A DNA stretch of 64,000 bases from Myxococcales bacterium (lineage in GTDB: Bacteria; Myxococcota_A; Polyangia; Haliangiales; Haliangiaceae): assembly GCA_016794525.1 (NCBI GenBank), contig JAEUJY010000144.1:1-64000 (forward strand), read 5' to 3'. This document shows positions 207 through 47,295 of this stretch, piece by piece. Numbering within the stretch: the first letter of the stretch is position 1; every line of letters begins with the position of its first letter. Under the pieces are notes generated by a model that saw only the letters and a program-made list of their open reading frames with translations, did no database searches and was not told the DNA's origin. The position numbers were made by a program, and so were the translations under genes.

Positions 207-263
207 GCCCGAGACCTCAGCAAGCCGCGCGCCAGCCGCAACCCCGCGACGCCACGCGCCGGA

Positions 264-346
264 TGTCCGAATCTCGGACACGATGGCCGGGATCCGGACG
301 AATCCGGCCGTCCACCGGACAGCCGCGCCTGTCCGGCCCCGGACAG
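264..346. promoter_or_regulatory. Cluster of TCCGGACA-type inverted repeats (candidate operators)
   Basis: Two perfect inverted repeats lie here: TGTCCGA-ATC-TCGGACA at 264-280 and CTGTCCGG-CC-CCGGACAG at 329-346. Between them are a TCCGGA palindrome at 293-298 and a lone half-site CCGGACAG at 315-322. The cluster sits 58-140 bases upstream of the HNH-like start and downstream of the metallophosphoesterase gene. No run of T follows, so a regulator-binding region fits better than a terminator. No known regulator is identified. Confidence 0.55.
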
Positions 347-37868: not shown

Positions 37869-37913
37869 GCGGCGCGGGTCGCGCGTGGCGCGACGGTTGC
37901 AGTCTCCCGGGGC

Positions 37914-39116
37914 ATGTCGGCCAAGCGACCCACGCGCTGGCGCACCTGGACCGTGATCGCGCTCCTGCTCGCCGGCGTGGCCGGCTATGCCGTCTACGCG
38001 CGGCTGCGCCCGGTGACCGTGACCGTGGCGCCCGTCGTGCGCGGCCGCGCGGTCGAGGCGGTCTACGCGACCGGCACGGTCGAGCCGATCGAGCGCGTCG
38101 TGGTGAAGGCGCGCCTGAGCGAGCACGTCGCGCGGATCCTGGTGAAGGAAGGCGACGCGGTCACCGCCGGCCAGCTGCTCGCCGAGCTCGACAACCCGGT
38201 GCGCGCGTTCGCGCTGCGCCAGGGCCAGGCCCAGCTCGGGCGCGCCCAGGCCCAGGCCGGCGCGCGGTCGCCGCAGCTCGCCGGGCTGGCTGCCCAGGTC
38301 CGCGGCCTCGAGGCCCAGCTCGACCAGGCCCGCCTCGAGCTCGATCGCACGACCCGGCTGGCGCGCACCGCGGCGGTGCCGCAGGCCGAGCTCGACGCCG
38401 CGCGGGCCAAGGTCGCGCTGCTCGACGCCCAGGTCCAGGCCGCCGCCGAGCAGCTGCGCTCGGCCAAGGTCGATCTCTCCGCCACCCGCGATCAGCTCGC
38501 CGCCCAGGTCGGCTCGCTGGCCGCCGAGCTCGGCGAGGGCGCGGTCACGTCGCCGCTGGCCGGCGTCGTGCTGCGGCGGGACGTCGAGCCGGGCGAGGTG
38601 GTCGCGCAGAACCAGGCGATGTTCGAGGTGGCCGACACCCGCACCCTGCTGATCGAGCTGCACGTCGACGAGGCCGACATCGCGCGGATCAACGACGGGC
38701 CCACCCCCACCGCCGCCGCGCTGTCGTTCTACGCGTTCCCCGGCCAGGCGTTCGCCGGCACGGTCGCCGAGATCCTGCCCGAGCCGGATCGGATCCGCCG
38801 CGCCTACACGGTGCGGGTGCGGCTCGATCAGCCGATCGCCGGGCTGCGGGTGGGCATGACCGCCGAGGCCAACCTGATCGTCTCCCGCAAGGACGACGCC
38901 GTGCTGGTGCCGATCGAGGCCCTCGACCGGGGCCACGCGTGGTTCGCGGTCGACGGCCGCGCCGTGCGCCGCCCGGTCACGATCGGCATTCGCGGCCTGA
39001 CCGACGCCGAGGTCACCGCCGGCGCCGCCGCCGGCGATCAGGCGATCGTCGACGCGGTCGCGCGTGGCGTCGGCGCCGGCGACCGGATCCGCGCCGTGCC
39101 GCGAGCCCGGCCATGA
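37914..39116 (+). CDS. HlyD/MacA-like membrane fusion (periplasmic adaptor) protein
   Basis: The 400-residue protein has an N-terminal membrane anchor (WTVIALLLAGVAGYAVYARL, about 12-31), a biotinyl-lipoyl-type barrel-sandwich half (VEAVYATGTVEPIERVVVKARLSEHVARILVKEGDAVTAGQLLAELDN) and a long coiled-coil hairpin (about 105-200). The second lipoyl half follows (AVTSPLAGVVLRRDVEPGEVVAQNQAMFEVAD), then beta-barrel and membrane-proximal domains. Such adaptors link an inner-membrane pump to an outer-membrane channel. Its stop overlaps the permease start (ATGA), so with the next two genes it forms a MacAB-like export system. No TolC-like gene is present. The substrate is unknown. Confidence 0.9.
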   Translation: MSAKRPTRWRTWTVIALLLAGVAGYAVYARLRPVTVTVAPVVRGRAVEAVYATGTVEPIERVVVKARLSEHVARILVKEGDAVTAGQLLAELDNPVRAFALRQGQAQLGRAQAQAGARSPQLAGLAAQVRGLEAQLDQARLELDRTTRLARTAAVPQAELDAARAKVALLDAQVQAAAEQLRSAKVDLSATRDQLAAQVGSLAAELGEGAVTSPLAGVVLRRDVEPGEVVAQNQAMFEVADTRTLLIELHVDEADIARINDGPTPTAAALSFYAFPGQAFAGTVAEILPEPDRIRRAYTVRVRLDQPIAGLRVGMTAEANLIVSRKDDAVLVPIEALDRGHAWFAVDGRAVRRPVTIGIRGLTDAEVTAGAAAGDQAIVDAVARGVGAGDRIRAVPRARP

Positions 39117-46281: not shown

Positions 46282-47295
46282 TCAGAACGCGCCGCGGACC
46301 AGCACGCCCAGCGTGTCGCCGCCGACGGCCGGCACCAGCGCGACCTCGCGGTTGCGCTTCGCGGGCGCGGTCAGGTACAGCACGACGCCGCCCGCGACGG
46401 CCACGCCGCCGACCGCGAACGCGATCGTCGAGATCGTCGCCCGGGTCCGCGCCGAGTCGATCAGATCCTGCGCCGCGCCGAGATCGCCGCGGCAGTCGTT
46501 CACGTCGCCGCCGCACTCGCGCTTGGCGTCGGCGTTGGCGCTCGTCGACATCAGCCCGAACGCGACGCCGGCGCCGAGCGCGGCGACGCCGCCCGCGACC
46601 AGCCCGATGCCGACCACCCGGCGCCCATGGCCGGGATCGAGATCGATCGGCTCGGGCGGCGGCGGCGGGGGCAGCTTGTCCGGAACCGGATCGGGATCCG
46701 GCGGCGGCGGCGTCTCGGCCAGCTTCTCCAGCGCCGGGATCTCGACGGTCACCGTCGTGCCGTCGCCCATCACCGCCACCTCCGCGTGCCACGACTGGTA
46801 GCCCTCGGCGGTGGCCTCGATCATCGACTGCCCGGGGTCGACCGGCGTCGCGACGCCGATCGCCGCCGTGATGTCGCTGCCGTCGCGCGTGACCTTGATG
46901 CCCGGCGTCGCGCCGCGCACCACCAGCAGCACGCGCACCAGCTTGGGCGCGAGCGCCTTGGCGCGCTTGGCGGCGTCGGCCTTGCGACCCTTGTTGGTGT
47001 CGGTCTCGGCCAGCGTCGAGTACAGCGCCCACGCCGACGCGCTGCGGCCGAGCTTCTCGAAGCAGAGGCCCAGGTTGTACTGGGTGCCCAGCTGCGGATC
47101 GAGCTCCTGGCTCTTGCCGAACGACTCGCACGCCTCGGCGATCTGGCCGGCGGCGATCTGGTCCTTGCCTTGCCGGAACGCCGCCTCGGCCGCGGTCTTC
47201 TTGGCCAGATCGTCGGGCTGAGCCGCCGCCACGCCAGCCATCAGGCCGACCGCCATCGTCACGAGCGCGAGGTGCCGTCGCATGGCGTCGATCAT
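46282..47295 (-). CDS. Secreted TPR/PEGA-like protein downstream of a Ser/Thr kinase
   Basis: The 337-residue protein has a signal peptide ([22 protein letters not shown]), TPR-like helices ([49 protein letters not shown]), a PEGA-like beta domain ([48 protein letters not shown]), a Pro-rich linker and two C-terminal membrane-like segments ([43 protein letters not shown]). Proteins with this layout follow Ser/Thr kinase genes in many myxobacteria. It starts 22 bases after the kinase stop on the same strand, so the two are probably co-transcribed. An ATG four codons downstream is an alternative start. The function is unknown. Confidence 0.82.

Follow-up and report, generated by a model that had tools for sequence, protein, structure and literature searches.

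Palindrome cluster upstream of an HNH-like gene

The 64-kb window that we analyzed is the start of contig C114 in a 9.8-Mb assembly (G000; completeness 96.7), a Kofleriaceae-related Myxococcota MAG. It opens inside a multi-copy HNH-like gene on the minus strand (1-206), of which the 5′ part (68 aa, ATG at 206-204) is present before the contig end cuts it off. The gene upstream, on the same strand, encodes a calcineurin-like metallophosphoesterase (Metallophos_2; 377-1108) and lies outside the module described here. Between the end of this gene at 377 and the HNH ATG, 58-140 bp upstream of the latter, sits a cluster of palindromes (264-346).

The proximal palindrome TGTCCGAATCTCGGACA (264-280) has the form TGTCCG-N5-CGGACA and is a perfect inverted repeat with 7-bp arms, 57 nt 5′ of the HNH ATG. 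The distal palindrome CTGTCCGGCCCCGGACAG (329-346), a perfect inverted repeat with 8-bp arms, reads CTGTCCGG-CC-CCGGACAG and forms the left edge of the DNA that is common to the HNH copies. Between the two lie an imperfect inverted repeat, GATGGCCGGGATCCGGACGAATCCGGCCGTC (282-312), which contains a CCGGAC half-site and the related site ATCCGGACG at approximately 292-300, and a CGGACA half-site, ACCGGACA (314-321). We thus confirmed the original prediction of two perfect inverted repeats and two related sites, with TGTCCG/CGGACA as the common unit. The 8-mer that it had named as the building unit, TCCGGACA, is not in the cluster and has its sole exact match at 46677. Across the window, TGTCCG-N0-6-CGGACA occurs at two sites compared to 0.05 expected, and none of 100 shuffles reached two.

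We rejected an SOS/LexA box, as the intergenic region has no match to the Myxococcus xanthus box, CTRHAMRYBYGTTCAGS (PMC9705874). Neither GTTCAG nor CTGAAC is found within 207-376.

A sigma-54-type promoter, TGGCGCGCGGCTTGCT (219-234, minus strand; TGGCGCG-N4-TTGCT), ends 12 nt before the HNH ATG, and the start of the proximal palindrome is 46 bp from the promoter start. The features of a sigma-54 promoter, namely a -24 GG and a -12 GC 10 bp apart in a TGGCACG-N4-TTGCW context, are found here and in at least 17 HNH copies. A further element, CGCGGGGTTG (239-248, minus strand), lies at a fixed distance upstream of the -24 box.

The upstream module in the HNH-like gene family

Searching the genome with the HNH-like protein returned 36 matches, about 30 of them close. 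Many are located at contig ends, as is usual when a repeat interrupts assembly. Contigs C113 and C114 both start inside near-identical HNH copies and carry the module at the same coordinates (1-345 of each); these starts are assembly breaks in the HNH repeat family.

When 15 HNH upstream regions were aligned, a conserved block of approximately 150-170 bp emerged, with unrelated DNA further upstream. The order within the block is distal palindrome, middle repeat, proximal palindrome, CGCGGGGTTG, TGGCGCGCGGCTTGCT and ATG. The proximal palindrome is exactly 46 bp upstream of a sigma-54-type promoter in 17/20 HNH 5′ ends, and in nearly all of these 17 copies the ATG follows 12 nt after the promoter; at the remaining three 5′ ends, the module is absent or degenerate. 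The distal palindrome is found at d = 111 or 121-122 in most copies, two values about one helical turn apart, and is missing from two. The HNH copies therefore have what is looked for in an EBP enhancer, repeated upstream palindromes in conserved helical phase. The suggestion that HNH copies share a control element is borne out by this fixed arrangement.

The domain assignment of these proteins is weak. The match to PF01844 scores 18 bits against a cut-off of 21.4, and that to the IscB HNH region (E = 8e-7) is also under the cut-off. By eye, the HNH motif in the C-terminal part of the copies (GGDHTPTTLAALCSAHH) has T or S, not N, at its center, making catalytic activity uncertain. A contig scan with the HNH protein as query gave no matches.

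Sigma-54-type promoters with and without palindromes

Genome-wide statistics were obtained from pattern searches and their reversed-pattern controls. A search from UAS arm to promoter placed 25/35 matches in 4 of the 27 allowed lengths (51-54 nt). The pattern GGTTG-N2-5-GGCNCG-N5-TGCW gave 21 matches versus 1 for the control, with one gap length throughout despite the free gap. Six of these 21 promoters lack palindromes and precede unrelated genes, most with a start codon about 12 nt downstream, and the CGCGGGGTTG element is likewise found at sigma-54-type promoters without palindromes. This indicates that the promoter is general and that the palindromes mark a subset, as would be expected for the enhancer sites of one activator. 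The promoter-ATG spacing further predicts leaderless or nearly leaderless mRNAs. The sites, promoter elements, fixed spacings, conservation and co-occurrence are all seen directly in the DNA.

The window holds a second consensus promoter at 37886-37901, with an ATG 12 nt later (37886-37914) and no palindromes. The gene that follows is an unrelated, membrane-fusion-protein-like one.

The genome encodes rpoN (G000:C157:78426-79898) as well as an EBP with a sigma-54 interaction domain. The cluster is most likely the UAS of a sigma-54 promoter, with sigma-54 dependence predicted from the promoter sequence.

Other genes behind the module

The motif was originally linked to the HNH family, but it is not specific to it. 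In the same genome, radC, comM, three REP-type transposase-like genes and a Uma2-like gene have the module upstream as well. In relatives, it is found before a second recA, before comM, before many transposase-like genes and before an EBP gene of the FHA/AAA+/Fis-type class. We therefore rejected an HNH-only motif, as the radC, comM, recA and EBP genes carry the same one. Transposase-like genes downstream of the module score 53 and 24 bits against NF047646 (cut-off 80), and are relatives of the REP-associated tyrosine transposase that fall under the membership cut-off.

Two recA genes are present in most of the family genomes examined. Upstream of the second recA, we counted 39 TGTCCG/CGGACA half-sites in 16 x 210 bp, compared to 3 in the same upstream length of the other recA (Fisher p = 5e-9). 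Several promoters of the second recA do not keep the C at -12. In most family genomes, GTCAGA-N8-TA(C/G)A lies upstream of the first recA (L320-L330, L332-L334, L398), an element that resembles the PafBC-dependent promoter of mycobacteria. Even in a genome with no clear EBP ortholog and almost no palindromes (G017), one recA is directly preceded by TGGCACGTAAGTTGCT.

The comM promoter is at nearly one position in 11/15 readable loci, one of which is in a genome that belongs to a different family of the class. We rejected dprA as a regulon member, since the module is absent from its upstream region.

Candidate activator

We identified an EBP gene (G000:C22:11453-12895, 481 aa) whose product combines an FHA domain, Sigma54_activat (E = 1e-59) with a visible GAFTGA motif, and a Fis-type HTH. 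A palindrome lies 126 bp before this gene, which has its own sigma-54-type promoter as well, and the EBP thus appears autoregulated. It is one of about 35 EBP-like matches in the genome. Clear orthologs, scoring 340-690 bits compared to less than 295 for other EBPs, are found in most family genomes, and their HTH is strongly conserved. Upstream of most of these orthologs lie TGTCCG/CGGACA clusters, and it is because the sites are usually found in the promoters of the orthologs themselves that we consider this EBP the candidate regulator. The FHA-AAA+-HTH protein is the most likely activator to bind the palindromes. In one genome (G021), the EBP ortholog is present with only one perfect palindrome.

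A contig scan with the EBP HTH returned 20 loci in MAGs labeled Kofleriaceae, Myxococcales, Myxococcota, Deltaproteobacteria and Proteobacteria.

Distribution across genomes and a possible second role of the motif

TGTCCG-N0-6-CGGACA occurs at 53 sites in the genome of the window versus 0 for the reversed control. Together with its presence at 17/20 HNH 5′ ends, this is not the random genomic distribution that the original prediction had given as grounds for abandoning it. Matches are found in 29/30 same-family genomes, ranging from 0 to 105 per genome. Two of these, G010 and G018 (L086-L101, L122-L161), are rich in perfect N5 palindromes (89 and 96, respectively), with 5 as nearly the only spacing. 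Of 62 examined palindromes from this pair, 40 are intragenic, in all reading frames, and a loose sigma-54 scan revealed almost no sigma-54-type promoters near the palindromes. About ten palindromes in the genome of the window are intragenic too.

The palindromes of G010 and G018 speak for a reading in which a regulator that has nothing to do with the candidate EBP, for example a repressor, uses the palindromes as operators, and the motif has a wider DNA-level role in the family (nucleoid or chromosome organization). We consider it unlikely, as the sites in the genome of the window keep a fixed distance to a sigma-54-type promoter and half-sites recur before EBP orthologs and the second recA across genera. 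The intragenic sites of G010 and G018 may reflect another protein acting on the same motif, or a further, non-promoter role of the EBP. These sites are the main reason why we hold down our confidence in a sigma-54 enhancer array.

Homology limits of the HNH copies

The motif had also been proposed as a mobility signature. The DNA common to dispersed HNH copies (up to 95% identity) is confined to the stretch between the distal palindrome and a TCCCACGTGGGA palindrome close to the 3′ end, and many contigs terminate within HNH genes, as would be seen if the palindromes bounded a mobile HNH cassette or served as its recombination sites, with any regulatory role secondary. However, the two ends differ (TGTCCGG-NN-CCGGACA on the left, TCCCACGTGGGA on the right), and the ends of the HNH unit hold no matching terminal inverted repeats of the kind that define an insertion sequence. 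Two copies lack the distal palindrome, no transposase is linked to the HNH unit, and the same array precedes single-copy genes such as comM, radC and recA. We regard this reading as improbable. Of the proposed signature, the bounded homology stands, but the differing ends and the lack of a transposase traveling along speak against it. The homology limits fit a cassette that would disperse together with its own enhancer.

The TCCCACGTGGGA palindrome occurs twice in most full HNH copies, where it encodes SHVG. It also forms intergenic arrays (L034:5687-6337, L024:2066-2408 and L021:2760-2951), in parts of which it recurs every 24 or 28 bp, and is absent from the 64-kb window even with one mismatch allowed.

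We rejected RNA hairpins, either a metallophosphoesterase terminator or a structure in the 5′-UTR of the HNH mRNA, as very improbable. In their favor, the predicted fold of the region is more stable than that of shuffled sequences (z = -2.6) and the distal palindrome begins 31 bp past the upstream stop codon, but there is no U-tract, the module is also found beside unrelated or divergent upstream genes, and transcription is predicted to start beside the ATG, with every palindrome upstream of that point.

Proposed mechanism

Taken as a whole, the cluster is probably a UAS array that acts on the sigma-54 promoter of the HNH-like gene, is bound by the FHA-EBP and belongs to a recombination and DNA-mobility regulon. 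The Fis-type HTH of the activator would bind TGTCCG/CGGACA approximately 30-110 bp upstream of the -24/-12 box, and its AAA+ GAFTGA module would open the sigma-54 polymerase. The FHA domain probably senses Ser/Thr phosphorylation. The predicted regulon comprises the second recA, comM, radC, about 17 HNH copies, REP-type transposases and a Uma2-like gene, and probably serves natural transformation or recombinational repair. Binding, sigma-54 dependence, the identity of the EBP, the inducing signal (competence or DNA damage) and the physiological role are what we infer from the sequences.

More tentatively, and with slightly less than even confidence, we hypothesize that Kofleriaceae possess a previously undescribed sigma-54/FHA-EBP switch for a recombination set (second recA, comM and radC), separate from LexA and PafBC and used for transformation or repair, and that selfish HNH and transposase cassettes have spread with the same enhancer-promoter, becoming active when the cell recombines DNA. 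Sigma-54 switches are well known, but a literature search that omitted most subscription journals found no case of sigma-54 EBP control of recA or comM. If true, the model would name a regulator, a binding site and a set of genes with which recombination control in a large myxobacterial group can be tested, and would illustrate how mobile nuclease genes can hitch-hike on a recombination switch of their host.

Comparison with known systems

The arrangement resembles NtrC-family sigma-54 systems (NtrC, NifA, NorR and RtcR), which have a -24/-12 promoter with clustered palindromes upstream and an AAA+ activator with GAFTGA and a Fis-type HTH, as in the candidate EBP. The 17-bp palindrome with its N5 spacer resembles the NtrC site. 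Unlike in those systems, the site here is TGTCCG-N5-CGGACA, the sensor is an FHA domain, an extra CGCGGGGTTG element is present, the targets are recombination and DNA-mobility genes, and the mRNAs are predicted to be near-leaderless. RtcR, which works with sigma-54 to activate RNA repair and has a link to the SOS response in Salmonella (PMC9879122, PMC7790460), offers a parallel in being tied to nucleic-acid damage. It differs from the candidate EBP in having a CARF rather than an FHA sensor, and in its RNA repair targets in place of recA and comM.

The gene set overlaps competence regulons in comM, radC and recA: comM and radC belong to the CRP-S competence regulon of Haemophilus (PMC5809987), and in competence radC is induced in many species and recA in some (PMC4630621). 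Those regulons depend on CRP-Sxy or on alternative sigma factors rather than on sigma-54, and here dprA falls outside the set. Multi-copy HNH genes under a recombination or repair switch have a counterpart in the LexA regulon of M. tuberculosis, which includes 13E12-family HNH genes (PMC4181829). There, LexA represses through the box TCGAAC-N4-GTTCGA; here, the sites are different and activation is predicted.

Myxococcus xanthus, with one LexA-controlled recA (the LexA box is at recA2) and pafBC (PMC9705874, PMC7029660), likewise exemplifies a myxobacterium with two recA genes under different control. Unlike in M. xanthus, one recA here has a UAS and a sigma-54-type promoter and the other a PafBC-like element.
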